Positions 128-57,312 of a DNA stretch of 64,000 bases are shown one piece after another (position 1 is the first letter of the stretch; each line of letters begins with the position of its first letter). The position numbers were made by a program, and so were the translations under genes. The stretch spans positions 124,001 to 188,000 of the forward strand of contig WFMF01000219.1 of NCBI GenBank assembly GCA_011033025.1, written 5' to 3'. The DNA comes from Beroe forskalii. Lineage: Eukaryota; Ctenophora; Nuda; Beroida; Beroidae. The notes under the pieces were generated by a model. It was given only the letters and a program-made list of their open reading frames with translations. It searched no databases and was not told the DNA's origin.

Positions 128-170
128 TGACATCATCAACGCCCCATCTTATCTCCTGATAATGACGTCA
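128..170 (-). repeat. CRE-bounded 43-bp repeat, reverse copy
   Basis: Starts with TGACATCATC and ends with GATAATGACGTCA, with CCCATCTTATCTCC between. A second reverse copy lies about 170 bp further on, at 312-339. Confidence 0.75.
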
Positions 171-311
171 TCTTATCCCGCCGAGCTGCCCGGACAGGCA
201 CGGAGCAGGGCTGCTGTAGACCTGTTATCAGTAATATATGTGACAACTAATATGTGTGTGTGTGTGACACGCCCCGTCAGTAAAAACCAGGCGGGGGAAC
301 GGCAGTAACGC

Positions 312-339
312 TCTACTTTGAGCTATGATAATGACGTCA
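312..339 (-). repeat. CRE-bounded repeat, partial reverse copy
   Basis: TACTTTGAGCTATGATAATG followed by ACGTCA. Nearly the same sequence recurs at 41912-41939, which shows that these are copies of one family and not chance CRE sites. Confidence 0.75.
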
Positions 340-1996
340 TTTTGACTAGAAATTGGTGTAAGATGTCCATATTTTTCGATAATTAAAGGGTTTTAGGGAG
401 GGTGTGTATATTAAGAATGAGTATTTTTATCTGCATACCAGTGCACAGAGACGCTGCAAGCCATGTTCTCAGTGTGTGGGGGTTTATGTTAGGGTTGGGC
501 AGCCACATTCCCCTTATAATTCGAGGTATGATGTAAATGTGAATACATCATGTAAATTGTATGATGTAAAGGTGAATGTGGATCATTTCGTTATCTGGAA
601 TATATCGTTAAGTAATGGCACACTTGGTTCTAGTTTCGACTTTCTTTGGATGCTTTCTGCTCCCCTTCCTAGTCATAAACTCAAAAGGCAGTGCTCAGGC
701 ACTCACTTAGATGCAGGAGTTTTAATTCTGTTGAAAAAACAACTTCTAAAAGCCCCAGTGTCGGCACCTCTGATAATACTCCTCCCTTCTCCAGAAGGTA
801 ATATAAAGCAGGTGTGCAAGCCGCAAGGTTTATAGAGACACATGAGGCATGGAATTGCTCGGAAGTTTCAGAGCGAGACACTAACGTCACGACTGATTGA
901 ATCGACAAACCATGACATTCTAGCACTCGTGGGAATACCCAGTTTTTAGTGTCGTAAGTACCATGATTGATATGGTAAATAGATGAGGCTATGAGTTTGA
1001 ATGGCATGTTTTCACATGCGTGTCTCTACTTGGAGACACGTTGGTATCAATACAGCTTTGCGCAGACAGGCCTCTAGACGAACTTCACTCCACTCACGTC
1101 TCAAGGTTCTGATTAATGGTGGGAAACAGTTGTGTCTTTTATGAGGAATTTAAATTTTATTCTGGGAAAATTGTTATATGTTCTGCTAAAAATAAAAAGA
1201 TAAGTAGGCTTCATTATCAAAGGTACTTGAGGGTTGGCTACTGGCTAGAAGCTGTGCTAAGACGTGACATTTCCATGTCCAATGTGTCAGACAGAATCTA
1301 AAAACCAGACATCTCTTGCGTGGTGTCTTGGTTGACCGCTGTCAATATGGACTGGGGTCAAAGTACAGATCCGCACTGCCTGTACCTGGTAATACACAAG
1401 TCGTAAAGTCCACAAACAACACGATACACAGCAAAATGCAAAATTGAAACCCATGAATCCATTCTGTTCCACGTACCCTTCGGCCAACTGTACACACAGT
1501 ACACCCCGTGTAAACACACTATACACCCTGTGTATTGTACATTTCCACTATGTATACATTTCCACTGTACATTTTCCACACGACCTGTGTGTTTGTCCTC
1601 CGGACTCCTCCTCCTCCTCCTTGGGGGCTGCTCTATATTCCCCCACACAGCGCGGGACAACCGTTTCAATTACCTTGATTGATATTTCTACAAAACCCAC
1701 CCGGCGCTTCCCATTGGTCTTCCTACCGGTCACGTGACATGCGTACTCCTCGCTGATTGGTCCGTGCTCCAGTTTACTCTGCCTCGTGATTGGCTCGTTG
1801 TTTAATTGAGTGGATGTATCGTGAGAAAATCCGCGTCATGAATGGTATGAGTGCAGCAGGAGGATACTCTGTTAAAAAGCAGCTCTCTACTGCTGTCTCG
1901 GAGTTCATTCGGTGGATATATGAGCATGAGAGGTGTTCTGTTTCAGCTGCACAGACACACATAACAGGTCACGTGATGAAAATAGGCGCGTGATTA

Positions 1997-2050
1997 TGAC
2001 GTCATATTGATGGTTTAGAGTGGTGAAAACGCCGCCTATTTTTCGTCTGT
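1997..2050 (+). repeat. CRE-bounded repeat with CGCCTATTTTTCG tail
   Basis: TGACGTCATATTGATGG, then TTTAGAGTGGTGAAAAC, followed by CCGCCTATTTTTCGTC. An inverted copy follows at 2203-2258. Confidence 0.75.
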
Positions 2051-2258: not shown

Positions 2259-4948
2259 TTTTAAATCGCATATTTCTCTGGCGGAGCGAGTTCAGTGGTG
2301 TGTTTGTCAGACGTAGGGGTACTTCATCAAACACGACATGACTGATCGGAATACATAGAAAACATGAAGCACTGGTCTAATTAGTTGTTAGAGATGTGCA
2401 TTCTTATCAATATAGTGTTATCACTAACACAATATAGTAGAGCAATGTGTTATCGTTTGTATCAAAACACTAAACTGTGTCTTTAAAATAATCGTGGGGC
2501 TGTGCTTCAGGTGATCTATTCTTATCATGATTAGATATTTTTAGATCAATAGCATCGCAAATATCATGGTCGTAGGAGTAGTTACTTCTTGAGGATAATG
2601 ACCAATGAATTACAGGATAAAACGTCCATATTCCTGATTATAAAAGTCAAGGTGTTTTTGAATTTTTAGTGGATATATACGTTGCATTATACAGGGAACA
2701 TATCATGAAGTTTGAGATTAATTACTTCGTAATGGAGTGTAATTATCAGTTCCTTTCGATCACAGAATTCAATAGCATGCATACTACAGAGTCTAGATGG
2801 CGGAGAAATTTATTAATTAATTTCAAAACAACATTTCGCAGAATGATGTCTATTACTTGATTATCTTACATAAAAACAACTCCTTAGAGCCACACTTGAA
2901 GCTCACATCCTGTAGAGTGAACACATTATTATGGTTAAAATGGGTAATTGATGACGCCAAATTATCTGTTTTTCCTGTGTGATAGTTAGTAAAACTCATG
3001 GAATTCGGATAGATTATCAATTCATCCAAATGGACATGCCCCCATGAGAAATTAACAACATGGAATCACTTACATCTTTACTATCCAAACATTGACGCAT
3101 TGAATCGTCACCGGATTGATCGAATTATAACACAATGATTAGTAACTCATAACTAAACATCGTATATCTGATTGATCTGAGAACCGTTGGGAATGGTTCC
3201 AGCACCAGTAGCAGTCATTATATATAGAAGTTTCCCAAGTGAACCAAGTCACCTATATCAGCACTTTGATCATGAACATCTATCAGAACCATTGTTTATT
3301 CCCGTCACAAATTTTATAAATCATTAATATAAGTAAGTTACGCAGTAATTTAAAGTTAGAACTTAGGAACAGTGTCATGACGAATTTATCTTGTAAAACC
3401 GCTTATTCAGTAATATTTAAAGTTTTAGTTCGTGGGACTTTGACAAAACACCATGCTCAATGTCAAATAATATATCTAGCATATTACTCATGACGGTTCA
3501 AGTTGGTACCTGGTTTAAGATGGTACCTGGTGCATTGATAGCGTATTTGGCATGATAGTCTCGAGTTAACGTATATTCTTAGTGGTTTCCCTTAAAATTC
3601 AGAAAACACTACAGTTTCTCACGATAGTCAAAATACTTTGAACTGTAGTGCATCCCAACGGTGTCAGATCTAGAAATTATATGGAAAGATTTCAGGAAAT
3701 TTTAGCATTCGCAGATCGCATAAAATGCAAATTTTTAGTTCGGATTGAATTTTGCTGTTTAAATAGTTTCAAAGATCATAAACCAGTTATTTCCGAACTC
3801 CAGACTTCAGACTGAAAATATAACCATTTCAGAATCAAGATTGCAGATTTGACAACTTAAAATCAAAAACTCAAAAATTGCCTCACCCTTTTAAATGCCC
3901 ACCGCCGTTTAGCTTCTCTCTTGATTATGTTCGGGAAACTGAACGGTTAGCACTATGCTGCAAAAGATCAAAGTAGGGAACACCTTAGCTACTTTGAATT
4001 CTCTTTATTTGCATCTGCATACAATAAAATAGTGTGAAATGACGTTTTGTGCTACGATACTGCGCGCTTGGTTACAAAAACATAGAACACGCCCAATAAT
4101 GCTAATTAATTGCCAATTGCTTGATCTTGCATACAATATCCAATTAAAAGTCCCTCGTTTGGTCTACAATTGTAATTATAGCATGATCAATGCTTCAGAT
4201 GTATCCGTTGTTTGATACATGATTATTGTATCTGCCCAACATATGATACATGATGACATGATGTTTCCTTTCTTACTCTTAAATTATTGTATTGAAATAT
4301 CTAACATATATCCTTATCTTCTGCTGTTGACACTCCCTTCCTTTTCCACCACCCTAACTTTTGTGTGATTTCTCTTCCTTTCGTTGATATTATCAGTTCA
4401 CGTACTATATTGACATTTATCAGATATATCATTGGTCGAAGAAGAGCTGCTGGTCGTTGATTGTAAAGTCATCATAATAGTTTAGAATGAGAATTTGATG
4501 ACTCAGACCGGATCTATTGTTCATTCATGAACCGTATATTTCTATGATTCTAAGACTTCCTCCCATCCTTTTACCAGAAGCTGACAGGGCCCGCGCGTGT
4601 CTTAGGCAGTTTTATGGAAGAAGCCCCAGATGTCAAGTTTCCTCAATATATACCAAAGTTTTTATAGAATTTGCATTTTACACACAAGTCGCTCTCGAGG
4701 ATCTTGTCGAGCTGTGACTTCACTATTTACCATATTTGGTCAAAAAGTCATCGAAATAAAACCAAATAAGGCAGCACCCTCATGATCCCCCTCATGCTTG
4801 TGTTTATGTCACATGATAACATGCCATACGTGTAAGAAGCGTGTGTGCACACTGCACGGTTGTTTAACAGAGGTTTTGTAAAGATCACCACAAGGTTTCT
4901 ACTTGTGCCAGGATAATGTGATACCAGCAGATTCTAGGTGGTAAAGGA

Positions 4949-4978
4949 TGACGTCATTATCAGGGTTTAGGGTGGGGA
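4949..4978 (+). repeat. CRE-bounded repeat, forward copy
   Basis: TGACGTCATTATCAGGG, then TTTAGGGTGGGG. The second CRE is not preserved. Confidence 0.65.
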
Positions 4979-5682
4979 GTTGTTGGCCTTGAACGTCTAC
5001 TCCTCTCGAACAGTTCATATGTTATGTGGAGACCTTACTGTGATATGTGACGAAAATAGTAGGTTTCTTCTCGAACTGGGGTTTTAAAATGATACAGCTC
5101 TAAGTGTTTCGTGTACTTACACGCGATTGTCCTGTACAAAAAGTGGGTCAGTAAAATCATGAACTGCTGAACTGAAGTTTAGCAAATCTTTATAAAAACT
5201 GAATATTGCCCTGCAAAATGTGCTCCAATTCGGATTTATATTTGTGATAAGGATTTGATGATGTCCCTCTCTTTGATCACTGCAGAGCAGCAGCCACACC
5301 CCTTTGCTTATCTACAGATTTCCATCAACAAACTTGTACTATTATTACACGACTATCCCAGCATCCAATGTTCATAGCCACTTTCTCAACAAGTCAACAC
5401 GTCAGTTCGGTGATTGCAAAGCAAAGAGATTGCCGTGCTGGAGTCTGGAGACATAAAGCTGTTCTCCTTCACTGATAAATATATTACGTCCCACATTAAT
5501 TCGAAGATGGAATATATTCAGATAAAAGATAAGTAAGCTCCGGGGTTTTCGCCATTTTGCAGCCAGTTTACAACATTTCTCGTCAATTTTTGGCAGTTCT
5601 GACACAGTTTAGGGCCCCTTGATCAGGATTCTATGAGAAATATTACTTATCGCGCAGGACAGGAGGAGCAAAGAGCCGCATA

Positions 5683-5720
5683 TGACGTCATTATCATAGT
5701 TTAGAATATTGAATTGTCGG
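5683..5720 (+). repeat. CRE-bounded repeat, forward copy
   Basis: TGACGTCATTATCATAG, then TTTAGAATATTGAATTG. The left CRE is intact; the right one is diverged. Confidence 0.7.
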
Positions 5721-10061: not shown

Positions 10062-11400
10062 CTACCTATTAACTTATTAATCACTGTCTCAGATGGAAAA
10101 AGGATATATACCTATTCAAGTATTATTCACTACATCGGATGGAATTGGGAAATATTCCTATTAAGCACTGTCTCGGATGGAATTTGTAAATATACTTTTT
10201 TTAGTATTAAGCGATAAGCACTGTCTCGGATGGAATTTGAAAAATATATCTTTTTAAGCATTAAGCACTGTCTTGGATGGAATTTGAAAATATATCTTTT
10301 TAAGCATTAAGCACCGTCTCGGATGGAATTTGAAAATATTCCCTTTAAAGTATTAAGCACTGTCTCAGATGAAATCTGAAATATACCTATTAAGCACTGA
10401 CTCGGATGGAATTTGGAAATATACCTTTTAGGTATTAAGCACTGTCTCGGATGGAATTTGAAAATATACCTATTAAATTATTAAGCACTGACTCGGATGG
10501 AATCTGGAAATATACCTTTTTAAATATTAAGCAGTGCTGTCTCGGATAGAATTTGAAAATATACCTTTTAAAATTTTAAGTATTAAGCACTGTCTCGGAT
10601 GGAACTTGGAAATATACCTATTAAATTATTATGCACTGACTCGGATGGAATTTGGAAATATACCTTTTTTAAGTATTAAGCACTGTCTCGGATGAAATTT
10701 GGAAATATACTTATTAAGTATTAAGCACTGTCTCGGATAGAATTTGAAAATATACCTTTTTAAGTATTAAGCACTGTCTCGGATGAAATTTGGAAATATA
10801 CTAAATTAAGCACTGTCTCGGATGGAATTTGGAAATGTACCTATTAAATTATTAAGCACTGACTCGGATGGAATTTGGAAATATACCTTTTTAAGTATTA
10901 ATAAGCACTGACTCGGATGGAATTTGAAAATATACCTTTTAAGTATTAAGCACTGTCTCGGATATAATTTGAAAATATACCTTCTAAGTATTAAGCACAG
11001 TCTCGGATGAAATTTGGAAATATACCTATTAAGCACTGTTTCGGATGGAACTTGGAAATATACCTTTTTAAGTATTAATAAGCACTGACTCGGATGGAAT
11101 TTGAAAATATACCTTTTAAGCACTGTTTCGGATGGAACTTGGAAATATTCCTATTAAATTCTTAAATTATCAAGCACTGTTTCGGGTAGAATTTGGAAAT
11201 ATTCCTATTCAGCACTGTCTCGGATGGATTTTGGAAATATACCTATTGAGCACTGTCTCGGATGGATTTTGGAAATATACCTAATAAAGTAAAAATATAC
11301 CTTTTTGAGCACTGTGTTCATTGTTCATGAAATATACCTGAAATTTACCTGAAATATACCTGAAAATCGAAAAATATACCCATTAAGCACTATCCCGGAT
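10062..11400. repeat. Satellite array, monomer about 45 bp
   Basis: About 25-30 head-to-tail monomers, typical unit TTAAGCACTGTCTCGGATGG then AATTTGGAAATATACC and a variable TTTTTAAGTA spacer. Monomers differ in spacer length (about 30-60 bp). About three diverged monomers also lie on the other side of the endonuclease fragment (9307-9436), so that fragment appears inserted in, or captured with, the array. Confidence 0.92.
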
Positions 11401-12184: not shown

Positions 12185-12228
12185 TGACGTCATTATCATA
12201 GTTTAATGTGACGAATTGATGACATTGA
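12185..12228 (+). repeat. CRE-bounded repeat, forward copy
   Basis: TGACGTCATTATCATAG, then TTTAATGTGACGAATTG, and ATGACATTG at the right end. Confidence 0.7.
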
Positions 12229-50400: not shown

Positions 50401-53400
50401 TTATCCTCGGCATCTTTCTTTCTACTCAACCCCACCTAATCCCCTATCTCTATAACCCCTCCTAACCCCCAATCCCCCTCCCGCAGGCGGTGGACCCCAG
50501 CATCCCTACCACAGACTCGCAGCAACACGCCCCCCAGCGGCTAACCCACTACCCCATCCACCCGGGATATCCCCTGGATAATCCCCAGTCCTACATCCCC
50601 AACGAGCACCTCCTACCTCATCGACCAGCCAATAACAGGTGAGGAGCGGGTTGCGATTAGCCAATAAGAGGGACGATGGTGTTATGAACAGCCAATAAAA
50701 AGGGAGAATGGGGTTTTAATCAGCCAATCATAGGACAGTTTGGTTTCATGAACAGCCAATTGAATATAAGAATGGTACCTTTCGCAGAATACATGTGTCG
50801 TAACTTACACCTCTTAAATAGCAGTGACCTAATTGAACCTTAAACTTTGATGCTCTGTCCTGTACATTCCATGTGCCCGGTGCTTCTTCCAGAACGCAAT
50901 GAGTTTCCGGGATATTCAGAGTCATGCATACCGTAGCCTTCTAGATGGTCGAAAATCTTGTTTCTTGAATTATTACAATTGATGAGTAATTGATTTATTC
51001 TCTTTTGACTCAATGGTACAGGTACAAAACTAAACGATGTGGTTCTTTAATGACAATCAATTTCGTCGTTCTACGACATCTTCAGGTCTGTAAATACAAT
51101 AACATTAGTATAGAATAATTCATAGACTCTAAAAACTACGGAGTATATTGTAATGCTCTAACCTAAGAACTTGAAATACGGGGTTCTAGGGCTACTTAAA
51201 TTCTTACACTAACTAGTTACTAACTACCAATCAATTCATGATACTAAATACTGATTAACTAAAAATTGCCGTACTAAGACTAAAATAACTGAAATTGACT
51301 GAAAACTGATCAAAACTGTATCAAAATCAAATTCGAATTAATGATCGTCGATCGTATGTGCTGATAATCGTACGATAATCGTACTACGTGTTAAAATGAT
51401 AAATCTGTACAACATGATATTTACATAAATACAAATCTTGGTACTTACAACCGTGTCAAAAATATTATGTACAAATACATACAATATATACAGCGTCAAT
51501 TTATACAATATTCCCTTTAACTAAAAAACGTTCGAGTTCCTTACATTCCTCCTTATCATTTAATTCAGGTCCCTGGCTGTAGATGAAAAGTGCCTCATAC
51601 ACCTTACGAAGTACTGTGTTCGACTCTGTACCCAATAGTCTGAAGGAAAGATCCGGGGAAATTCCCAAATGTTCCTTGCTGTAGTGAACCGCCATTGCTT
51701 CCTCCTTGTAACTCCCAGTAGTAGGGTTCGTAGCAAACCTGGGATGTTCACTCAAACGTTCGTTGAGTGACCGTGAACTCTCCCCAACATACTGTTTTGA
51801 GCACAAGTTACAAGTGATCTCGTAGATCGGACACATAGTGGAGCAGTCACTTCCTTCCTCTAGTCTGGAGCAGATGTTGCAGGAGTTGGAAGTGCATTTC
51901 CTCCGATCATACGGTCTTGAAGAACAGAAAATGTCTCTAAGAGACAAACCTGGTAGGAAGACGACCTTAATGGGAAGGTTGCGGTTCTTGACAAATACTT
52001 GTATTTGGTCCGACACCCCCTCTGATATGTATGGAAGTTTCAACCATACAGGGTTGGAGTCTCGAGAGAGGGCATCTTGAGTGGATCTTCTTGGGTGGTA
52101 TTCCAGAAGAGCTCGAGGATCTTTGTAGCCGTTACACTTTAACAGGTTGTCGATAATAGTGTAAGACTCCTCTACAAGTTCTGAACTGGAACAACTCTTT
52201 TCCGCAGTGCGATAAAAGTTCTTGGCAGTCTCAACTTTCATTCTGTACGGATGATGAGATCTGCTGTGCAGGGTGATCGCCTTTTTCTGCGGTTTCCTGT
52301 AGTAATTGATGAGTAATTTATTAATTCTCTTTTGACTCAATGGTACAGATACAAATGTAAACGACCCTTTAATGACAATCGTTCTACGACATCTTCAGGT
52401 CTCAAATTTGATTGTATAAAGTAGTGTTGTAAAAAGTTTAACACTACTTTACAACACTACTTTATACAATCAAATTTGAGACCTGACGACGAAATTGATT
52501 GTCATTAAAGAACCACATCGTTTATTTGTATTCGTACCATTGAATTTTTCTCCTCTTATTCAACCCGTGAAATCAGTTTCCCACTTGTGGTGTAGTCGAC
52601 CTTCTCCATCTACTCTGATCTGTGTACCAAGGAACGGAGTGTATGATTCCTCAGACTGTGGAAAATCAATTTCCCATGATAGCCTGCTGTCCGGGTCCTC
52701 CACGGCTATTCTGTCAAAGAACTGCTTAGCTTGTTCCTCATCTCTGATAACAGTACCCGCATCATCCACATACCTACCGTACATGACTGGTAGGTAATGG
52801 GGATCTGTGTAAACACTTCTGCGTTCAAAAGTGTACACTCTGACGATGGCCCCAATGGGGCTGGGTTTACAACCCATGAAAAGTCCAATCATCTGTTGGT
52901 AGATTTTCCCATCGAAAACAAAGAACGAGTTACTGAATACTAGTTCTAACATCTCGTGTACATCCGTTAGATTCAGTCCATACAACTCCAAGTCATCAAT
53001 GTGTTCAGCAGCCAATGCAATGACATCCTCGACACACCCCAAGATGTTGATGTTGGTGTACAGCGATGCAACATCTGCTGTGCAGAACTTCAAACCTTTC
53101 AGCTGTTCTTGTGACAAGCTTGATAGCTGTTCCAGGTGAGTATGAGTGTCCTTCAAGTGGCTGGGAACAAATTTGAGGAGTGGGCTGAGAATCTGAGTAC
53201 ACATCCATGCTAGTTTCTCAGTGGGGGAACCACAGCACGAAACAATGGGTCTGACCTTGCACGTCTGCGTGATGTCCGTGTCCACTGAGATTGATGAGGC
53301 GTCAAACTTATGAGTCTTTAACAGAATATACATGGTGGGCAACTGGGTATTCCTGCTTGTGTACAAGTCAACCATGTTCTTGTGTAGATGCCGTGTCTCA

Positions 53401-55157
53401 CAGATCCGTTTCCAGAGGGAATTGCTCTGATCCTGGAGGTTCTTCACCATGGATTTCCTCTGGCGACTGTAGGAGACAGGTGTAGGGTTGGCAATAGGGC
53501 GAACATTACCTCTGTACTTTGTAGTAGGAGCCACGTAGCTGTAAACTCCAGTTGAGGTAAGGTGGTTGACTGTGAGCTCCTTGTGCGCTGACTTCTCCAT
53601 CACCACGAACTCACCACCTTTGTCCGACACAGACAGGTGGAGCTCGTCACGTCTGTTCTTCAGAGACTTCAGTCCGACCGCTTCGTCATGGGTGAGGTTA
53701 TATGAAACAGATTTAGCATTCTTAACTGTTCTGAGAGTGAAATTAAGAAGCTGCTTCAACGAATCCTCCATGTCGATGTCTGATGTGGGCGGCGGCTTGG
53801 CGAAGGGTCTCTGGAACGGACATCCCAATTGTTTCATATGTTGAAACAAGGTGGCACAGGATGAGGTGTTGCTGAGATGAGATTTCCATCTGAGTTTGAA
53901 CGCACAAGAAGCTATCTCAACTCGTATCCGTCGAAAGAGAGTATCATCTATCCGGGGTGTGAGAGCGAAGTCTGGTCCAAGAGCCAACACACTCTTCTCC
54001 TGATCTGACAACTCAGTCCGAATGACAGTGACTCTCTCTTCAACGGGCTGACTGGTGACTGACACTTCAGGTGCAGGGGGTACTGATTCAGTAGGCTGCA
54101 CAGTGTCGTCAACACGAGTAGAGGGGTCTCGTAAGTTGATGAGCCAATCGAACTTACGCTGCAGTCTTTCCTTCCAGTGCAACTTAACAACAGAGTTATA
54201 GGAATCAAAAATATCCATGATCTGACGAAACAAACTGTCTGAATTAAGTAATGAACGTAACTGATTTCTGGTCTGAATAATATGAAACTTAGTTTTTAGA
54301 GTCTATGAATTATTCTATACTAATGTTATTGTATTTACAGACCTGAAGATGTCGTAGAACGACGAAATTGATTGTCATTAAAGAACCACATCGTTTAGTT
54401 TTGTACCTGTACCATTGAGTCAAAAGAGAATAAATCAATTACTCATCAATTGTAATCATGCGACTCTTATTCAACGACCCGATCCGTGAAATCAGCATTG
54501 AATTATTACGTATTTTCCTTGCTAAAATGGCCGAGAATGGAATTGAACCCACTTCCTAGATCAAAAATAAAGTATTTGGATCCTCCTGGCTCGATAAATT
54601 CATAATTTGAAAATTCTCAAAAAATGGCAAAAATCTTTAAAAAACACTGATGTATAGCCTTACTACATCACTGAAAATGGCAAAAAATTTAGTTTCTCGA
54701 TATGTCGAGAAATCGGTCAATTTATGTTCTGTGCATCATTTGAAACATGTTTGCCAATTTTTAGGACATGGGGATGTGATTTCTTGCTTCCAGACTGAAA
54801 AAAGGCAACAGAACATGACATTGCGTGTAAAACCGCCCTCTAACCCCCTCCTCTTCCCCTTCCCTTCTCTCTTCCCCCCTTCTAACTCGGTCTCCTCCCC
54901 ATCAGGCAGTACCCCCACCACCACCACCACCAGACCCCTCCCCTCTGGCAGTACCCCACCTTCTAACCCCCTCCTCCCCCCTCAGGCAGTACCCCCACCA
55001 CCACCACCAGACCCCTCTCTCCCCACTGTTTTAACCCCCATTCTCTCCTCTCAGGCAGTACCCCCACCACCACCACCAGACCACGACGGACTACCTCCCC
55101 GACAGTCCGGAGGAGACGTGGCAGTCAAACTCTGACTGGTCGCACACGTCACCCTAG
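14272..55157 (+). CDS. Notch: Notch receptor, 27 visible exons, 5' end missing
   Basis: Notch is a single-pass receptor; ligand binding releases an intracellular fragment that works with CSL transcription factors. Exons in order: 14272-14440, 15232-15375, 15888-15990, 24718-24904, 30906-31019, 32541-32640, 34357-34505, 35132-35236, 37127-37309, 38067-38196, 38453-38573, 39863-40070, 40467-40600, 40816-41017, 43802-43913, 45608-45747, 46488-46645, 46801-46892, 47054-47172, 47701-47809, 48417-48652, 48801-48927, 49053-49454, 49618-49852, 50092-50192, 50487-50638, 55055-55157. Domain order (EGF, LNR, juxtamembrane, TM, RAM, ankyrin, NLS, PEST) is diagnostic; ankyrin blocks such as ALHWAAAV and ETPLFLA match animal Notch closely. 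The visible coding length is about 4.1 kb. The first exon starts inside an EGF, so 5' exons are missing. Oddities: three junctions (exons 9/10, 12/13, 14/15) do not fit GT-AG in frame, and exon 14 has a one-base frame change. Gene identity is very secure; these junctions are less so. Confidence 0.96.
14441..15231. other. Notch intron 1
   Basis: The distal half (about 14935-15225) is a degenerate repeat of TAACCCCTCTCTC units merging into the pyrimidine tract of the acceptor. No gene is seen. Confidence 0.8.
15232..15375 (+). CDS. Notch: Notch exon 2: EGF 2
   Basis: Acceptor CCCCTTCAG, donor GTTAGT. It completes the repeat opened in exon 1, with an unusually long, cysteine-poor middle loop before [12 protein letters not shown]. 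It then opens EGF 3 with DPCDTNPC. The reading frame joins exon 1 cleanly (phase 2 to exon 2). Confidence 0.88.
15376..15887. other. Notch intron 2 with duplicated acceptor
   Basis: Contains a complete copy of the exon 3 acceptor and first coding bases (15821-15850), 59 bp before the real one. Otherwise AT-rich and featureless. Confidence 0.8.
15888..15990 (+). CDS. Notch: Notch exon 3: EGF 3 and start of a calcium-binding EGF
   Basis: Encodes [16 protein letters not shown], then [12 protein letters not shown], and ends in DIDECT, the opening of a calcium-binding EGF. Donor GTGAGT. The acceptor and the first 23 coding bases also occur 59 bp upstream at 15821-15850; only the downstream copy continues into a complete EGF. 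Confidence 0.9.
17635..17677 (-). repeat. CRE-bounded repeat, both CREs intact
   Basis: TGACGTCATTAATTCCCC, then ATTATTCCACC, then TGATAATGACGTCA. Both terminal palindromes are perfect. It lies in Notch intron 3. Confidence 0.78.
18290..18330 (-). repeat. CRE-bounded repeat, reverse copy
   Basis: GAGTCATCAATTCTCC, then ATTCTAAATTATGATAA, and TGACGTCA. The upstream AATAGGC at 18271 is the reversed tail. Confidence 0.72.
20066..20105 (+). repeat. CRE-bounded repeat, forward copy
   Basis: TGATGTCACTGTCATGG, then TTTAAGATAGTG, then TTTTGATGA. It is followed by a diverged tail, CCGCTTATTTTCC. Confidence 0.65.
20573..20610 (+). repeat. CRE-bounded repeat, forward copy
   Basis: GTGTCAATATCATGG, then TTTAGAATGGTGG, then TTTGATGACG. 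A reverse copy lies about 215 bp upstream, at 20355-20390. Confidence 0.68.
23677..23863. mobile_element. MITE-like element, 187 bp
   Basis: Perfect terminal inverted repeats CCTTAGTACATGAAATTAAG at the left and its complement at the right end. Inside, AAATTAAGCATTTTT and related AATTAAG motifs recur. No coding capacity and no clear target duplication. It lies in Notch intron 3. Confidence 0.82.
24255..24440. repeat. Minisatellite, TTACCATGACAACTAAC units
   Basis: About six degenerate units of 25-30 bp with the core TTGTTACCATGACAAC, ending about 280 bp before exon 4. Confidence 0.8.
24718..24904 (+). CDS. Notch: Notch exon 4: EGF 4 and most of EGF 5
   Basis: Acceptor TTTGTCCAG, donor GTGAGT. 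It completes the DIDEC repeat ([25 protein letters not shown]) and then reads [17 protein letters not shown] and FTCQCKDG. Both are class EGF-Ca repeats with the expected six cysteines. It follows the largest intron of the gene, 8.7 kb. Confidence 0.95.
25392..25428 (-). repeat. CRE-bounded repeat, first of a cluster of three
   Basis: ATCAATTCGCCATTATAACC, then TCTGATAATGACGTCA. Two further copies follow at 25573-25607 and 25751-25793, giving a spacing of about 180 bp. Confidence 0.75.
25573..25607 (-). repeat. CRE-bounded repeat, second of a cluster of three
   Basis: TGAATTCAGCATTTAACC, then CTATGATAATGACGTCA. Same orientation as the copy 180 bp upstream. Confidence 0.75.
25751..25793 (+). 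repeat. CRE-bounded repeat, third of cluster, with tail
   Basis: TGATGTCATAACCATG, then TGTTAGAATGGTC, then TATTGATGACGTCA, followed by CCGCCTATTTCTC. It is one of the clearest copies with both ends and the tail. Confidence 0.78.
27785..28241. mobile_element. 457-bp element with G9/C8 ends and 7-bp target duplication
   Basis: TCACCTC at 27778-27784 and 28242-28248 flank the element. The ends are a run of nine G, ATCATGGATTAAGTGC and AAGACACGAGG at the left, mirrored as CCTCGTGTCTTGCAC, TTAGTCCCTGATC and eight C at the right. The interior repeats ACTAAGTGATTTT and ACCCACCCC motifs several times. No ORF. A non-autonomous DNA transposon of unknown family. Confidence 0.85.
29928..29964 (+). repeat. 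CRE-bounded repeat, forward copy
   Basis: TGACGTCATTATCAGGGG, then TTAACATGGTGTTTTAAT. It pairs with the reverse copy at 30133. Confidence 0.68.
30133..30175 (-). repeat. CRE-bounded repeat, both CREs intact
   Basis: TGACGTCATCAAAACACCC, then ATAAAATCCC, then TGATAATGACGTCA. A forward copy lies about 205 bp upstream, at 29928-29964. Confidence 0.78.
30906..31019 (+). CDS. Notch: Notch exon 5: end of EGF 5, EGF 6
   Basis: Joins exon 4 in phase 1 to give [10 protein letters not shown], then [17 protein letters not shown] and YRCICKPG. Acceptor CATTACAG, donor GTGAGA. The repeat carries the calcium-binding D-I-N-E opening. Confidence 0.94.
31020..32540. other. Notch intron 5
   Basis: No gene seen. 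The last 100 bp consist of short repeats around CACCACGCGTTG / CACGCGTTAC with GACAC spacers (32445-32535), next to the acceptor. Confidence 0.75.
32541..32640 (+). CDS. Notch: Notch exon 6: end of EGF 6, EGF 7
   Basis: Acceptor CTCCCCAG, donor GTAATT. Encodes [15 protein letters not shown], then [19 protein letters not shown]. The CKNGGTC motif fits the O-fucose consensus C-x4-S/T-C. The preceding intron ends in short ACGCGTTA repeats. Confidence 0.93.
33364..33404 (+). repeat. CRE-bounded repeat with tail
   Basis: TGACGTCATTATCAGGG, then TTAGAATGGTGAATTG, then ATGATGTAA, followed by ACTTATTTTCGTGCGC. It is close to my consensus. Another forward copy lies 233 bp on. Confidence 0.78.
33597..33636 (+). 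repeat. CRE-bounded repeat, forward copy
   Basis: TGACGTCATTATCATGG, then TTCAGAATGGTGTG, then TTGATGAAG. Same orientation as the copy at 33364. Confidence 0.76.
34178..34345. repeat. Tandem repeat on palindrome GACACCAGTGTC
   Basis: Four to five units of about 40 bp: TTTGACACCAGTGTCACTGA then CACCACCGTACACTCA. The core is a perfect 12-bp palindrome. It ends about 10 bp before the exon 7 acceptor tract. Confidence 0.88.
34357..34505 (+). CDS. Notch: Notch exon 7: end of EGF 7, EGF 8
   Basis: Acceptor CTCCCTTCAG, donor GTGAGT. Encodes [14 protein letters not shown], then [13 protein letters not shown] and [12 protein letters not shown] similar pyrimidine-plus-AG sequence occurs at 34141-34158, about 197 bp upstream, without coding continuation. 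Confidence 0.93.
34506..35131. other. Notch intron 7
   Basis: AT-rich; nothing recognised. Confidence 0.75.
35132..35236 (+). CDS. Notch: Notch exon 8: EGF 9
   Basis: Encodes [17 protein letters not shown], then [19 protein letters not shown], a calcium-binding EGF. Acceptor ATTCCAG, donor GTACGTG. Both boundaries join neighbours in phase 1. Confidence 0.94.
35237..37126. other. Notch intron 8
   Basis: One CRE-bounded repeat (36236), a short imperfect duplication around TATCCTAACTTTTAGATTAG (35998 and 36067), and a CA-rich patch at 36765-36795. No coding signal. Confidence 0.7.
36236..36290 (-). repeat. CRE-bounded repeat with reversed tail
   Basis: AAATAGGCGGTG, then TGACGTCATCAATTC, then AATGTTCTGATG and a diverged right CRE, TGACGGAA. 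Confidence 0.7.
37127..37309 (+). CDS. Notch: Notch exon 9: EGF 10, start of EGF 11
   Basis: Acceptor CCCCCTCAG. Encodes EFTGKTCG, then [28 protein letters not shown] and [12 protein letters not shown]. The 3' boundary is odd: the exon runs into GGGAAAGTTTC, and GGAAAGT recurs where exon 10 starts. No in-frame GT donor exists at the point the EGF requires. The end is therefore placed by homology only. Confidence 0.85.
37310..38066. other. Notch intron 9, non-canonical 5' boundary
   Basis: Position-by-homology intron. It starts after AACAACAAGG and ends CTCTCCCAG; GGAAAGT straddles both borders. Any placement that keeps the EGF gives GA-AG or GT-AA ends. It holds one partial CRE-bounded repeat. 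Confidence 0.65.
37618..37646 (-). repeat. CRE-bounded repeat, partial
   Basis: CACCATTCTAACTCC, then TGATAATGACGTCA, inside Notch intron 9. Confidence 0.68.
38067..38196 (+). CDS. Notch: Notch exon 10: EGF 11, start of EGF 12
   Basis: Starts after CTCTCCCAG. Encodes [23 protein letters not shown], then [15 protein letters not shown]. Donor GTAATT. It completes the CNNKGKC loop opened in exon 9, which fixes the frame even though the upstream donor is non-canonical. Confidence 0.88.
38453..38573 (+). CDS. Notch: Notch exon 11: end of EGF 12, EGF 13
   Basis: Acceptor CTCCTCAG, donor GTTAGA. Encodes [16 protein letters not shown], then [14 protein letters not shown]. The EGF 12 loop between Cys3 and Cys4 is very short. 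The frame joins exon 10 and exon 12 in canonical fashion. Confidence 0.92.
38574..39862. other. Notch intron 11
   Basis: AT-rich. Its last 70 bp carry a first copy of the exon 12 acceptor and start (CCTCAGGGATTGTT at 39792). Confidence 0.75.
39863..40070 (+). CDS. Notch: Notch exon 12: end of EGF 13, EGF 14, start of EGF 15
   Basis: Encodes [16 protein letters not shown], then [28 protein letters not shown] and [11 protein letters not shown]. The acceptor CCTCAGGGATTGTT is duplicated 66 bp upstream, at 39792. The last 16 coding bases plus GT form an 18-bp direct repeat with 40449-40468. The natural donor GTCAGA therefore has no matching in-frame AG acceptor downstream. Confidence 0.88.
40053..40468. 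repeat. 18-bp direct repeat bracketing intron 12
   Basis: AACCCTTGCAAGGAGGGT occurs at 40055-40072 and 40451-40468. The first copy is the end of exon 12 plus the donor GT; the second is the start of exon 13. The sequence between is a 378-bp AT-rich insert without ORF or inverted ends. It looks like an insertion with target duplication inside an EGF coding sequence. Confidence 0.88.
40467..40600 (+). CDS. Notch: Notch exon 13: degenerate EGF 15 and start of LNR 1
   Basis: Continues NPCKEG with [11 protein letters not shown], an extra cysteine pair ([11 protein letters not shown]), then the opening of LNR 1 ([15 protein letters not shown]). Donor GTGAGA. The start is set by frame inside the second copy of an 18-bp direct repeat, so the exact 5' boundary is uncertain. 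Confidence 0.78.
40816..41017 (+). CDS. Notch: Notch exon 14: LNR 1 and LNR 2, contains a frame change
   Basis: Acceptor CTGCCAG. LNR 1 ends [15 protein letters not shown]; it keeps the cysteines and two Asp but lacks the usual W-D-G. A linker NPWELC follows, as in other Notch proteins. LNR 2 ([14 protein letters not shown], then [13 protein letters not shown]) is in a different frame. One base appears to be missing within the GC-rich stretch around 40895-40915. The 3' end (TGCGA, donor GTAAGT) repeats at the next exon as TGCGAGTA, again off by one from GT-AG. Confidence 0.82.
41912..41939 (-). repeat. CRE-bounded repeat, partial reverse copy
   Basis: TACTTTGAGCTATGATAATG followed by ACGTCA, nearly identical to 312-339. 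Another diverged copy with CCTATTTCTC lies about 215 bp upstream. Confidence 0.74.
42534..42572 (+). repeat. CRE-bounded repeat, forward copy
   Basis: TGACGTCATTATCATAGG, then ATAACGTAGTGTGTTG, followed by AACCGCCGG. Confidence 0.68.
43802..43913 (+). CDS. Notch: Notch exon 15: LNR 3
   Basis: Encodes [15 protein letters not shown], then [15 protein letters not shown], the most canonical of the three LNR modules with its W-D-G-E-D calcium-binding core. Donor GTAAGT. The AG preceding TATGAG is one base out of register with the exon 14 donor. The upstream sequence TGCGAGTA is shared with the end of exon 14. Confidence 0.85.
43914..45607. other. Notch intron 15
   Basis: Contains a minisatellite (44655-44880) and otherwise nothing recognised. 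The acceptor region repeats the exon 15 end (CTACCAT). Confidence 0.7.
44655..44880. repeat. Minisatellite, about 42-bp unit
   Basis: Four to five units with GTGCTGGGCAACATATACAT, then TTACCTAGCAACATCGTACA. Units at the two ends are diverged. Confidence 0.92.
45608..45747 (+). CDS. Notch: Notch exon 16: heterodimerisation region, N-terminal part
   Basis: Encodes [12 protein letters not shown], then a predicted helix ([14 protein letters not shown]) and NIAPNIDQD. The position directly after LNR 3 matches the NOD/HD region of Notch, although the sequence is divergent. The acceptor is CTACCATAAG, without a pyrimidine tract; it repeats the exon 15 end (CTACCAT). Donor GTGGGT. Confidence 0.8.
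45748..46487. other. Notch intron 16 with transposon fragment
   Basis: The fragment at 45781-45880 is related to the end of the composite element at 9087. The remainder is AT-rich, with a TATACTACTATT repeat near 46030. Confidence 0.7.
45781..45880 (+). mobile_element. Diverged end of the 9087-11526 element family
   Basis: GGACTGTCCTGCTTTTGCC, AGGGCGCTTTGCCATGCCCC and TTTTTTGGGGC follow the same order as the left end of the 9087 element (CTGCCCTGTTTTTGAC, AGGGCGCCCTGTCATGCCC, TTTTCTGGGGC). It starts 33 bp after the exon 16 donor. Confidence 0.68.
46488..46645 (+). CDS. Notch: Notch exon 17: heterodimerisation region, C-terminal part
   Basis: Acceptor CTCCTCCAG, donor GTGAGT. Encodes [15 protein letters not shown], then [15 protein letters not shown] and [10 protein letters not shown]. 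It fits the juxtamembrane half of the HD domain, with the hydrophobic FQVLAI strand near the expected ADAM cleavage region. I see no RxRR or RxKR furin motif. NVT and NGS are potential N-glycosylation sites. Confidence 0.83.
46801..46892 (+). CDS. Notch: Notch exon 18: transmembrane helix
   Basis: Acceptor TCTCCTTCAG, donor GTGAGT. A short Pro/Gln-rich stalk leads into [20 protein letters not shown], a 20-residue hydrophobic helix. The helix ends at the exon border; MVGRN in exon 19 provides the stop-transfer charge. This is where gamma-secretase would cut in the family. Confidence 0.93.
47054..47172 (+). CDS. Notch: Notch exon 19: stop-transfer and RAM segment
   Basis: Encodes [19 protein letters not shown], then [22 protein letters not shown] corresponds to the family motif LWFPEGF, whose Trp docks on CSL. 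Basic residues directly after the membrane fit the stop-transfer signal. Acceptor CTTCTCACAG, donor GTTAGT. Confidence 0.94.
47173..47700. other. Notch intron 19
   Basis: AT-rich; nothing recognised. Confidence 0.7.
47701..47809 (+). CDS. Notch: Notch exon 20: RAM to ankyrin linker
   Basis: Its phase exactly bridges exon 19 (ends phase 2) and exon 21 (starts phase 0). It encodes [17 protein letters not shown], then [15 protein letters not shown]. No recognised domain; human Notch has a linker here. Acceptor CTCTGTAG, donor GTTAGA. Support comes from phase and an open frame, not from similarity. Confidence 0.75.
47810..48416. other. Notch intron 20 with tRNA-derived SINE
   Basis: Contains a SINE-like insertion at 48176-48324; the rest is unremarkable. 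Confidence 0.75.
48176..48324 (-). mobile_element. tRNA-derived SINE candidate
   Basis: On the minus strand, starting near 48310, the sequence reads CTCCGTGGTGTTGTGGTAAG (A-box-like). It continues AAGTTCGATTCCCCGG (B-box-like), the order and spacing of a tRNA gene, with poor acceptor-stem pairing. Flanks GTGCGATTTCTGC (48163-48175) and GTGCTATTTCTGC (48325-48337) look like a 13-bp target duplication with one mismatch. A roughly 60-bp tRNA-unrelated tail follows. It could instead be a decayed tRNA gene. Confidence 0.68.
48417..48652 (+). CDS. Notch: Notch exon 21: linker and first ankyrin repeat
   Basis: Acceptor TTTCCCGCAG, donor GTTAGA. A polar, glutamine-rich linker ([16 protein letters not shown]) ends in [12 protein letters not shown]. 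That matches the GETALHLAAR start of the Notch ankyrin domain. Confidence 0.92.
48801..48927 (+). CDS. Notch: Notch exon 22: ankyrin repeat 2
   Basis: Encodes [19 protein letters not shown], then [19 protein letters not shown]. This is a standard ankyrin repeat with the TPL signature. Acceptor GTCCCCAG, donor GTGAGT. Confidence 0.95.
49053..49454 (+). CDS. Notch: Notch exon 23: ankyrin repeats 3 to 6
   Basis: The longest coding exon in the window (134 codons). Consecutive repeats read [52 protein letters not shown] and [16 protein letters not shown] (with one E omitted in this shorthand). Spacing and motifs closely follow the human NOTCH1 ankyrin block. Acceptor TTTATTCCAG, donor GTGGGT. It is the strongest evidence for gene identity. 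Confidence 0.98.
49618..49852 (+). CDS. Notch: Notch exon 24: end of ankyrin domain, proline-rich segment, NLS
   Basis: Encodes [18 protein letters not shown], a Pro/Ser-rich stretch ([11 protein letters not shown]), and the basic cluster [14 protein letters not shown], a likely monopartite nuclear localisation signal. Acceptor CTCCCCAG, donor GTTATT. Confidence 0.92.
50092..50192 (+). CDS. Notch: Notch exon 25: intracellular tail
   Basis: Encodes [18 protein letters not shown], then [16 protein letters not shown], a Ser/Pro-rich tail with several SP sites. Acceptor CACACGCAG, donor GTGAGT. Phases match exons 24 and 26. Confidence 0.88.
50487..50638 (+). CDS. Notch: Notch exon 26: intracellular tail
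   Basis: Encodes [16 protein letters not shown], then [16 protein letters not shown] and [10 protein letters not shown]. The Pro/His/Gln-rich tail is typical of the low-complexity C-terminus of Notch. Acceptor CTCCCGCAG, donor GTGAGG. A retroelement sits in the following intron. Confidence 0.87.
50977..51137. repeat. Left inverted terminal repeat of the Penelope-like element
   Basis: Begins AATTGATGAGTAATTG and ends AGACTCTAAAAACT. It is a reverse-complement match to 54291-54456 with very few differences, suggesting a fairly recent insertion. Confidence 0.9.
51501..52340 (-). CDS. Penelope-like GIY-YIG endonuclease portion
   Basis: Residues from [18 protein letters not shown] onward are the RT-endonuclease connector of Penelope-like proteins. 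[19 protein letters not shown] and LNERLSEH form the GIY-YIG nuclease core with its cysteine pairs. It ends in a natural stop at 51501. The first 13 codons of the open frame are contributed by the inserted element. In the family this domain and the RT form one polyprotein; here they are separated by the 273-bp insertion. Confidence 0.9.
   Translation of the reverse strand: MSQKRINKLLINYYRKPQKKAITLHSRSHHPYRMKVETAKNFYRTAEKSCSSSELVEESYTIIDNLLKCNGYKDPRALLEYHPRRSTQDALSRDSNPVWLKLPYISEGVSDQIQVFVKNRNLPIKVVFLPGLSLRDIFCSSRPYDRRKCTSNSCNICSRLEEGSDCSTMCPIYEITCNLCSKQYVGESSRSLNERLSEHPRFATNPTTGSYKEEAMAVHYSKEHLGISPDLSFRLLGTESNTVLRKVYEALFIYSQGPELNDKEECKELERFLVKGNIV
52304..52576. mobile_element. Palindromic mini-element inserted in the Penelope-like ORF
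   Basis: The left end, AATTGATGAGTAATTTA, matches the left end of the host element. The right end, CTTATTCAACCCGTGAAATC, matches its unique right end at 54470-54496. Between them lie two inverted copies of the terminal repeat meeting at a palindrome (CAAATTTGATTGTATAAAG and its complement, centre about 52440). No coding sequence. It is a non-autonomous relative that has landed in a full-size copy. Confidence 0.85.
52560..54233 (-). CDS. Penelope-like reverse transcriptase
   Basis: A 557-codon open frame. Reverse transcriptase motifs in order: MYILLKTHK and [13 protein letters not shown] (N-terminal fingers, about residues 305-345), [13 protein letters not shown] (motif A), [14 protein letters not shown] (motif B), YGRYVDDAG (motif C with the catalytic YVDD), and [10 protein letters not shown] (near 540). 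These are typical of Penelope-like elements and telomerase-related RTs. The start at 54233 is the first Met of the open frame. The last six codons (ETDFTG) and the stop come from the inserted element, so the native sequence ends at HHKW. Role in family: target-primed reverse transcription. Confidence 0.92.
   Translation of the reverse strand: MFRQIMDIFDSYNSVVKLHWKERLQRKFDWLINLRDPSTRVDDTVQPTESVPPAPEVSVTSQPVEERVTVIRTELSDQEKSVLALGPDFALTPRIDDTLFRRIRVEIASCAFKLRWKSHLSNTSSCATLFQHMKQLGCPFQRPFAKPPPTSDIDMEDSLKQLLNFTLRTVKNAKSVSYNLTHDEAVGLKSLKNRRDELHLSVSDKGGEFVVMEKSAHKELTVNHLTSTGVYSYVAPTTKYRGNVRPIANPTPVSYSRQRKSMVKNLQDQSNSLWKRICETRHLHKNMVDLYTSRNTQLPTMYILLKTHKFDASSISVDTDITQTCKVRPIVSCCGSPTEKLAWMCTQILSPLLKFVPSHLKDTHTHLEQLSSLSQEQLKGLKFCTADVASLYTNINILGCVEDVIALAAEHIDDLELYGLNLTDVHEMLELVFSNSFFVFDGKIYQQMIGLFMGCKPSPIGAIVRVYTFERRSVYTDPHYLPVMYGRYVDDAGTVIRDEEQAKQFFDRIAVEDPDSRLSWEIDFPQSEESYTPFLGTQIRVDGEGRLHHKWETDFTG
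54291..54456. repeat. Right inverted terminal repeat of the Penelope-like element
   Basis: AGTTTTTAGAGTCTATG through ACTCATCAATTGTAAT, complement of the left repeat. It contains CTGAAGATGTCG and ACGACGAAA, arranged like the conserved parts of a hammerhead ribozyme. Confidence 0.9.
54904..55085. repeat. Repeated exon 27 acceptor and start
   Basis: CAGGCAGTACCCCCACCACC occurs after an AG at 54904-54905, 54984-54985 and 55053-55054, with a partial copy at 54946. Only the third continues into the degron. The first two are followed by AGACCCCTC. Confidence 0.88.
55055..55157 (+). CDS. Notch: Notch exon 27: terminal exon with PEST degron and stop
   Basis: Acceptor CTCTCAG joins exon 26 in phase. 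It reads [18 protein letters not shown], then [15 protein letters not shown] and TAG at 55155. The [10 protein letters not shown] block matches the SPESPDQWSS degron near the end of vertebrate Notch (Fbw7 target), and SDWS also recurs there. The acceptor plus the start of this exon are repeated upstream at 54904 and 54984; those copies lack the degron. Confidence 0.93.
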
Positions 55158-56983
55158 TAACGGCCTTACCATGGTAACCGCCGTGTTGCCATAGCAACCG
55201 CAGTGTCAGTGTCAAAGCAACGTTAAGCAACCCAATGACTCGTATCATTGCTGCACCAAGTGCTGGAGTTGGCACGCCAAGTTGCCTCGCAAGGTTTACA
55301 ACCAGGTTGTGGGAAAGTTTACAATATTTGGCTCGTTTTGGTGCCCTCTCTTTGCTCCCGTAACGTGGGCACTGTTCCCTAGCAACCGTGGGAAACCAGG
55401 CAACTGAATCCAGGCCTCTCTGAGATCTGTTCAATGTAAAGACTGTTAATTGCACGACGAACGTGCGTTGCTGCTGCCGAAATGATCGATAAACGTTAAA
55501 ACACTGTTATTTTCTTCCCGTATATTTGTGTTTTCTGAAGAAAGGGATGTTTGCTGAGCACCAGTGGGGTCATTTCACTGTGTGTAAGTTCATCGCTGTG
55601 TTAACCTGTTCAGGCAAACCATACCAGGACGCCTCAAACTTATATTATTGCTGTTACGAAGATTTGAACCCTTTTAACTCCATTTAATTAATGCGATATA
55701 GGATAAGTTCGGCAAAAATTATGTTATATCTGCAACAAATACTAGGACACTAGATATTAATAATAATATGTAATAATAATGATATATTATTTGCGTTTCA
55801 AAAAGTCGTGTTGTGAGAGAAGCTTGTTTTTATCGTTATAGAATGATTGTTTATAAATCAGTTACCTGTGCGTACGCTTTCAAATGATCGCAATTCTGAA
55901 TAATTCAGAATCGTTTCAAGTCACGACTCTTTTAAAGTACACTGGTGACTGATTTGTTTTATCTTTTACAACTTTTATAAAGCACTGGAAAGTAAAACTA
56001 TAAAACAAAGTTCTTTTAAAAGAGAAAACTTTCAAATTTGACTGCATTTACCAATATTGTTTTATACCAAAAGATACTGTAGTAATATTTCTAAAATGGC
56101 AGAAAGTTTCAGTTTCTTTTCAGTGAGCGTTCTATAGTATAGTATATGGCTCCCAAGCCCTTATTTGCTATCATGTACATAGTAGTATTGAAGGGTTACT
56201 AACCTGAACCAGGTTAATTACCCTTTATATTGAGTCCCTGAGACGGGTTATTAGTCCAGATCGACCGAATAACCCCAACGACATTAAGAGTAATTTTTTT
56301 CAATTAAACAATCTTGGCTGCAGAATCACATTCGTCGCAACAGCAATTAGAGCTTCTCAAAGTCAGAGGAGTCAAAAATTAGCTGCACTAAATCAGTCTT
56401 AACGAAATCCATGAAAGCAAACGGCGATTGAAACACATACCTACTGTACATCCGGGTTAACAATTTATTTCCGGTATCACGGTTTGACATGACTCTGTAC
56501 TCGAGAATCGAGATGAATCATGAACCACAATTAGAATGTTAAAACTTTCTGCCAAACAAATTAGCGGTAGACTCTTATAGCGTCATTATCATGCGTAGAA
56601 GTAGCGAATTAAAAGTACCGACCAAGCTGCCTTATATGTGATAGCCCAGGCTAATTCTGATGGAATTTCAAGAATTACCATGATGTTCAGGTGAAGAGGA
56701 AAAGGGTATCGCTTCATTAAGTTACCGGTTCAACACATGAAGATGAACGAATTATCTAACTATAATCCGTGGTAATTCATTTTGATTCGGCCTGTAACTG
56801 CGTAACTACGTAATTCTGTACTGCATATTTGAGTATTCAATACTTTAAAAACTAAATGTAATCAGCCCTGTGAATAAGATTACCATGATGGGTCTTGCTT
56901 CCGGGAGTCTGCAGCTCCCATCGAAAGACCATTATTATCCATGTTTTAACTACGTTTAATGAGTGGTTTCGCCATATAATATC

Positions 56984-57153
56984 ACTATTAACCTCAGTAA
57001 AGATAAGTAACATCTAGTTTTGAACTCGGCTTCGCCTCGTACAAAACACATCATTATTGAACTCGGCTTCGCCTCGTACAATAATGCATATATATGTTGC
57101 TCGCTGCGCTCGCAACATATATCATGTTACTAATCTCTACTTCGGTTAATAGT
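56984..57153. mobile_element. 170-bp hairpin element with three inner hairpins
   Basis: Outer arms ACTATTAACCTCAGTAAAG... and its imperfect complement ending CTTCGGTTAATAGT, about 30 bp each. Inside are three successive hairpins. Two carry ACTCGGCTTCGCCTCGTAC between TTTTG/CAAAA and ATTATTG/CAATAAT arms. The third has ATATGTTGC/GCAACATAT arms around TCGCTGCGCTC. No ORF. Confidence 0.78.
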
Positions 57154-57189
57154 TCTATAGTACGGGTTGTAAATGCTGCGCACCAAGGC

Positions 57190-57312
57190 TAGGCGGTTAA
57201 ATTCCCTATTCCCAACCCTTAATGACGTCATCGGGCAGCCATTCCAACCCTTGATAATGACGTCAGCAACCCTCGATCATTACGTCACTCCCAACCGCCT
57301 ATTTTTCGTGCG
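57190..57312 (-). repeat. Tandem CRE-bounded repeat with tails on both sides
   Basis: Reversed tail TAGGCGG at the left, then TGACGTCATCGGGCAGCC, CATTCCAACCC, TGATAATGACGTCA, a third site TTACGTCA, and CCGCCTATTTTTCGTGCG at the right. It looks like two overlapping copies in opposite orientation. Confidence 0.72.

Follow-up and report, generated by a model that had tools for sequence, protein, structure and literature searches.

A dispersed family of short, probably MITE-like repeats in and around the Notch gene of Beroe forskalii, with an internal 14-mer that survives selectively

The Notch locus and its dispersed repeat

The window described here is a 64-kb stretch of the genome of the ctenophore Beroe forskalii (GenBank assembly GCA_011033025.1, contig WFMF01000219.1, positions 124,001 to 188,000 of the forward strand), and it holds an animal Notch gene, encoded by the plus strand, together with many copies of a short repeat, the best-conserved part of which is a 14-mer, TGACGTCATTATCA. 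EGF-coding matches of the gene extend from 24.7 to 40.0 kb, two matches resembling Lin-12/Notch repeats (LNR) are found at 40,944 and 43,842 (a third match in the same search is an EGF), and an ankyrin open reading frame (ORF), recognized with Pfam, occupies 49,059-49,490. The best PDB matches of this ORF are ankyrins and designed repeat proteins, and Notch ankyrin domains are among the 60 best shown. The G+C content of the window is 39.8%, with a CpG observed/expected ratio of 0.74. As for the 14-mer, we take it to be a cAMP response element (CRE), TGACGTCA, that runs straight into TTATCA, in which the GATA-type site TGATAA is read in reverse.

How large is the family? The CRE palindrome occurs 26 times in the window, where dinucleotide shuffles lead one to expect 0.80 (none of the 100 shuffles reaches 26), and the complete 14-mer is present in 18 exact occurrences. 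With an nhmmer profile built from 21 seeds, the matches, once overlaps are merged, make 36 loci at E<0.05, while ten third-order Markov controls of 64 kb each gave 0, 0, 0, 0, 0, 0, 1, 0, 1 and 0 matches, i.e., 2 in total. These counts rule out chance CRE sites, as the original prediction had maintained. A profile made of the right half only, for which 27 of these copies served as the training set, returns 31 matches at E<1, and 0 in the reversed sequence.

The working list used below also contains 36 copies: the nhmmer loci at 15874 (E 0.045) and 60814 (E 0.046) were left out, and those at 6298 and 17818, from a weight-matrix search, were added. The dispersal in both orientations that had been predicted is borne out, with 21 copies on the plus strand and 15 on the minus. 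The list spans 109-57310, with a gap from ~42.6 to 56.5 kb, and the density in the window is about one repeat every 2-3 kb; 15 of the 36 copies lie within 25.4-42.6 kb, flanked both left and right by Notch exon matches. They had been said to stand always outside exons, and this holds as far as the recognized coding matches go: none of the 36 overlaps an EGF-coding match and, by coordinates, none lies on the ankyrin ORF or on the two LNR-like matches, although a full exon map is absent.

Arms, boundaries and the surviving 14-mer

The module had first been described as 43 bp long, with a perfect palindrome at both ends, and both points need correction. The conserved unit measures ~90-95 bp, roughly from -33 to +57 relative to the left CRE. 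The left CRE, the palindrome of CREB/ATF (basic leucine zipper, bZIP) factors, is perfect in 19/36 copies and the right one in 5/36; both are perfect in just three (17635/17670, 30133/30168 and 57223/57258), so that the family cannot be defined by a pair of perfect CREs. The AACCGCCTATTTTTCGTGCG tail reported along with the module is real, but usually degraded.

Along an ungapped alignment of 27 copies, the column information rises weakly from ~-33, peaks at 0..+13 (TGACGTCATTATCA), is moderate until ~+40 (TGGTTTAGAATGGTGAATTGATGACGT) and fades by ~+57 (AACCGCCTATTTTT); the ~28 bases that follow the 14-mer at a fixed distance are conserved less. In these copies every column from -80 to -40 and from +58 to +109 stays at or below 0.3 bits, and beyond ~100 bp the flanks of the 36 copies are without family-wide homology. 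The flank matches that do occur come from neighbouring modules or from flanks that overlap, apart from two pairs, of 35 bases (27366/28381) and 30 bases (56578/57265). Adjacent copies are less than 350 bp apart in 11 instances vs 6.3 expected under a uniform null (P=0.02), and less than 600 bp apart in 14 vs 10.1 (P=0.067). A larger parent element having two modules as its ends was rejected, given at most mild clustering, mixed orientations and little shared flank.

The unit is bordered by inverted arms, AACCGCCTATTTTTC on the right and its counterpart GAAAAATAGGCGGTT on the left; the earlier reading had seen an inverted arm on one side only. The best arm match reaches at least 10/15 in 18/36 right flanks and 12/36 left flanks, whereas four sets of control flanks gave 0, 0, 2 and 0 of 36. 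At the stricter level of at least 12/15, CGAAAAATAGGCGGT is found at nine places in the window, all of them 21-58 bp from a module: six to its right and three, in inverted orientation, to its left. The family, its unit and its arms are matters of direct observation, with arms flanking a ~95-bp unit on both sides and nine of nine strong matches beside modules, as in a miniature inverted-repeat transposable element (MITE).

Of the two readings that had been suggested for the repeat, the core of a short interspersed nuclear element (SINE) or MITE and a spread regulatory module, the MITE is favoured by these arms. A SINE core would also be dispersed and short, but the flanks contain no family-wide body, inverted ends are found instead, ARAGORN detects no tRNA (it recognizes intact tRNAs and would pass over a decayed head) and there is no Rfam match at gathering score, pol III boxes not having been scanned for; a SINE is therefore highly improbable. 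Another reading, in which the copies are promoters of small non-coding RNA genes, is comparable to nematode piRNA (Piwi-interacting RNA) genes, which have a dispersed upstream motif. It would suit a strong core that is found in either orientation, within the gene as well as beyond it. The lack of informative columns on either side of the unit and the missing Rfam match speak against it, and we give it very little credence.

The ends are the worst-preserved part of the element, and the 14-mer is the best. Because the family was first found through its core, blocks of the sequence were masked in turn and membership was decided again without them, at a threshold above the best reversed-sequence score. 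With the core (columns 0-13) masked, 33 members were obtained, not including 41705, 56578 and 57265, and the mean top-base frequency of the masked columns is 0.85. The corresponding figure is 0.68 for +14..27 (33 members) and 0.60 for +28..41 (41); the right arm has 0.47 and the left flank 0.39-0.44 (41 each, weaker copies included). These other masked runs gave up to 41 members, with weak ones (e.g., 21393, 31523, 36852, 42138 and 56751) that were not kept.

Among the 33, core mismatches, with a one-base shift allowed, are distributed as follows: 17 copies with none, 4 with one, 0 with two, 6 with three, 5 with four and 1 with five (copy 56578, outside this set, has two). The mean divergence over +14..41 is 0.32 from the consensus and 0.285 from the nearest neighbour; on this basis 0.55 perfect cores would be expected from the consensus distance, or 4.3 from half the nearest-neighbour distance, and the observed 17 were reached in 0 of 200,000 simulations. 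The left CRE also outlives the right: in the same set the left alone is intact in 16 copies, the right alone in 2 and both in 2 (P=0.0013). The 14-mer has therefore been maintained, whether through use of the sites or through selection among the source copies.

Its survival is selective. All 18 exact 14-mers carry the right half, 17 of them in the same register and the other displaced by the loss of one base (offsets of -4 to +4 were tried), and these right halves have taken 152 substitutions in 476 positions. Copies with intact and decayed cores do not differ in their score outside the core (Mann-Whitney P=0.75); therefore the intact copies are not simply younger, and age alone is ruled out as the cause. 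Their identities to the consensus over +14..41 are 0.68 and 0.71, respectively, in the 33, though these columns were used for selection, and arm retention does not differ significantly between the two groups (P=0.17 right, 0.85 left). Over columns +14..40, conservation is very uneven in the intact-core copies (dispersion 2.63, P=1.1e-5; mean 1.70 when thinned to 12 copies) and nearly even in the decayed-core copies (1.29, P=0.15). A differing decay pattern between the two groups was nevertheless rejected, as the contrast gave only a permutation P=0.061. The uneven decay of the 14-mer and its surroundings is robust and unusual.

Two further explanations have to be weighed at this point. According to the first, the repeat was never mobile, and each copy is a composite regulatory or architectural motif in use, with a rigid footprint of ~40 bases, CTCF-like in size. 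The fixed spacing, the conserved pairing of a CRE with a GATA-type site and the uneven columns of the intact-core copies would all suit such a motif; inverted 15-base arms, and good arms on copies with decayed cores, are what a mobile element would be expected to have, so that we regard this as unlikely. According to the second, several diverged master elements kept the 14-mer for their own transposition, as a binding site for a transposase or a host factor, and the copies are neutral, those with an intact core having simply been inserted that way from different masters. Selection at each site would then not be required for the fixed spacing or the lack of close siblings. Copies 339 and 41939 share the derived sequence TAGCTCAAAGTAG, and the variance of pairwise identity exceeds the column-shuffled expectation (P=0.022, 35 of the 36 copies); because derived states are shared between copies, selection among source copies has to be kept in view. 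The maximum pairwise identity, however, is not above the shuffled expectation (P=0.29), the prediction from half the nearest-neighbour distance, which still includes divergence between masters, falls well below the observed number of perfect cores, and neutral copies by themselves leave unexplained why cores have 0-1 or 3-5 mismatches and never two in the 33. Such a selfish origin is possible, if on the unlikely side.

The copies and their surroundings

The copies are cited here with their strand and nhmmer E value. Perfect cores are found on the plus strand at 4913-5010 (E 2.8e-15), 5647-5744 (2.0e-12), 12149-12246 (2.6e-14), 13169-13266 (4.3e-13), 29892-29989 (2.4e-18), 33328-33425 (2.3e-19; one base deleted beside the core, both arms recognisable), 33561-33658 (4.7e-16) and 42498-42595 (3.8e-16). 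On the minus strand they are at 109-206 (3.9e-14; 14-mer at 157-170), 278-375 (8.6e-16; 14-mer at 326-339, right arm recognisable), 17616-17713 (1.9e-12; both CREs perfect), 18269-18366 (1.6e-15; arms recognisable), 25367-25464 (4.6e-15) and 25546-25643 (9.6e-13), these two between Notch exons, 30114-30211 (6.5e-16; both CREs perfect, a 9-base direct repeat TCAATACAC on either side), 37585-37682 (2.4e-14), 41878-41975 (1.1e-14) and 57165-57310 (7.2e-12). The last is the longest copy, with both CREs perfect, a perfect left arm GAAAAATAGGCGGTT, a degraded right arm and a 22-base tandem repeat that spans the core (57245-57287).

A single mismatch is present in the cores of three minus-strand copies, 2197-2294 (1.2e-18; good right arm), 7698-7795 (1.2e-15) and 20329-20426 (1.0e-18), and of one on the plus strand, 41358-41455 (4.5e-5); two are present in the weak copy 56542-56639 (plus, 7.9e-3). 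Cores with three mismatches occur on the plus strand at 1961-2058 (8.5e-6; left CRE intact, both arms recognisable, a 10-base internal alignment gap) and 20030-20127 (3.2e-11; good right arm), and, classed as decayed, at 23049-23146 (plus, 1.9e-6; good right arm), 25715-25812 (plus, 1.2e-9) and 36229-36326 (minus, 1.0e-4), the latter two with a good right CRE and right arm. The cores decayed by four mismatches are all on the plus strand: 2881-2978 (1.7e-4), 4428-4525 (1.4e-3), 20535-20632 (7.0e-7), 28345-28442 (2.0e-4) and the weak copy 27330-27427 (0.03). Two weak plus-strand copies with decayed cores, 6262-6359 and 17782-17879, come from the weight-matrix search only, and in another weak copy, 41644-41741 (minus, 0.013), the core is lost while the left arm is good.

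Other repeated sequences accompany the family. Between copies 27366 and 28381 lies a 35-base inverted repeat (27787-28240), 94% complementary, with its arms 384 bases apart. Two orphan occurrences of TGACGTCA, at 60807 and 60981, are outside the working list, and the nearby locus 60814 reaches only the E value given above. This pair (60740-61040) is ~170 bases apart and in opposite orientation, each member adjoining CCGTTTATATGGGAGA and TACCC, and it resembles either two CRE plus TATA-type promoters or another small repeat.

Within the Notch gene, 44658-44822 is a tandem repeat with a 42-base unit (3.9 copies, 96%). At 14096-14329, a stretch of 71 bases is duplicated with 92% identity, 163 bases apart and with 19-base tandem repeats alongside; by eye it appears to be EGF-coding, and it is possibly a duplicated Notch exon. 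A minisatellite-like array of ~20 copies, with units of ~46 bases (TAAGCACTGTCTCGGATGGAATTTGGAAATATACC...) and 38-base variants, occupies 10063-11283. Finally, 50969-54459 contains two minus-strand ORFs, of which the one at 51501-52340 matches GIY-YIG weakly, under the Pfam cut-off, and the one at 52560-54233 matches nothing in Pfam. They are enclosed by 181-base repeats in inverted orientation that are 97% complementary; the whole reads as a Penelope-like retroelement, and no module of the working list is inside it.

Origin of the family and known systems

What kind of element could have left these copies? Most likely this is a genuine dispersed repeat, MITE-like and ordinary in kind. The interpretation we prefer, with a probability of about 0.5, is an old family of very short MITE-like elements whose 14-mer was kept most likely through protein binding. 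The ancestor would have been ~90-95 bp long, with arms GAAAAATAGGCGGTT and AACCGCCTATTTTTC and, on the left, a CRE continuing into a GATA-type site (TGACGTCATTATCA), followed by ~20 bases (TGGTTTAGAATGGTGAATTGA) and by a second, weaker CRE adjoining the right arm. As a non-autonomous element, it would have been spread in both orientations by a presumed transposase, and then decayed. Once activity had ceased, the ends would have decayed, while the 14-mer and its spacing to the next ~28 bases would have been kept in roughly half of the copies, most likely as a protein-bound site with a bZIP (CREB/ATF-like) factor on TGACGTCA and a GATA-type factor on TGATAA. These factors are putative, named from the resemblance of the motifs, and the binding would presumably have been useful to the host.

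With regard to transposition itself, direct repeats of 8 bases flank 6/36 copies vs 1.06 expected (0/300 permutations), and the test gave P=0.04 for 7 bases, P=0.12 for 6 and P=0.43 for 5. In distant flanks there is no excess of 8-base repeats (3 vs 4.4). A wider test near the element found 9 vs 4.5 for 8 bases (P=0.024), and none of 10 bases. The neatest cases are TCAATACAC around the copy at 30,175 (92 apart) and ATAACAG around 1,997 (93 apart).

Several points weigh against this interpretation. Taken as target-site duplications, the direct repeats are unconvincing, with inconsistent lengths and offsets; one of them is ATATATAT, and another lies inside the 57265 element. The arms score below 10/15 on the left in 24/36 copies and on the right in 18/36, and no transposase was seen in a search confined to four ORFs. 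Three real copies fold no better than their shuffles (z -1.5, 0.4 and -1.0), and an alignment of 25/36 copies has no conserved pairing. The right CRE was perhaps never perfect in the ancestor, which weakens the left-right comparison; the contrast in column conservation between intact- and decayed-core copies is just suggestive; and, the family having been seeded on the core, some bias may outlast the masking. Lastly, the evidence is from one 64-kb window of one species. The strong fold of the typed consensus (z -11.7) is that of a sequence given perfect arms, and a hairpin or transcribed structure was rejected since neither the three real copies nor the 25-copy alignment supports it.

The other reading in the original prediction, a spread regulatory module, would be supported by the fact that the 14-mer survives selectively. 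In its boldest form, a tiny inverted-repeat element would have multiplied in an ancient burst and seeded rigid protein-docking sites, about half of the 36 being individually preserved by selection as CRE-plus-GATA enhancers or architectural anchors while the mobile ends rotted: a domesticated transposon grid. We consider this doubtful.

For the specialist, it is the sparing of the 14-mer that is of interest. If it reflects selection on individual copies, intact- and decayed-core copies stand side by side in one gene, and the use of a transposon-borne binding site becomes directly measurable. If it reflects only selection among source copies, this is an ordinary repeat, to be masked by repeat libraries. 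The family may already stand in Dfam or Repbase.

The 14-mer TGACGTCATTATCA was not found in the literature searched. Among the matches listed, sub-strings of the repeat appear only as TTTAGAATGGTG or AAAAATAGGCGG, under titles that are mostly bacterial resistance surveys, and wider searches returned, by title and among the matches listed, nothing on the repeat. Exact-pattern scans of IMG/VR and GTDB genomes gave no match, a weak test given strict patterns, much diverged copies and collections without animals; one strict pattern, used on both, matches just 6 window copies, and the other IMG/VR patterns were not checked against the window. A looser GTDB pattern (11 window matches) hit 6 bacterial records vs ~11 expected by chance. 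The best of these records score 19.0, 17.2 and 17.1 bits with the profile, about as much as the weakest copies in the window and far less than the best one, at 63.9. Bacterial relatives were set aside on this chance count and on the difference in organisms.

Like MITEs in general, the repeat is short, apparently non-coding, has inverted ends and occurs in both orientations. An ordinary old MITE would be expected to decay about evenly along its length; here, in contrast, decay has spared a 14-mer in the interior and gone furthest at the ends.

Two animal systems come closest, and in both cases the likeness is one of description. The CERP2 and CELE2 MITEs of Caenorhabditis are described as co-opted into germline promoters bound by HIM-17, a subset having been put to use from thousands of motif pairs in the genome (PMC9757741). 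They too are short inverted-repeat elements with a spaced motif pair, likened here by description and not by sequence. Their binding and promoter activity were shown by chromatin immunoprecipitation sequencing (ChIP-seq) and reporters, whereas the window repeat is known by its sequence; and their motifs m1 and m2 are said there to resemble no other eukaryotic regulatory motif, unlike the core described here, a CRE plus a GATA-type site (PMC9757741).

The second system is that of the placozoan Mutator terminal inverted repeats, which lie at chromatin-loop anchors (PMC12221973). Here also a motif sits within the inverted ends of a DNA transposon, is spread genome-wide and has possibly been domesticated, a similarity of description rather than of motif letters. 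The placozoan sites are at promoters, whereas 15 of the 36 copies in the window are between Notch exon matches. Both systems offer earlier examples of transposon ends that turned, or may have turned, into regulatory sites (PMC9757741, PMC12221973). Should the doubtful idea of a domesticated grid prove true, the grid of Beroe would be denser, in this window, than the placozoan loop anchors as described in that source (PMC12221973).

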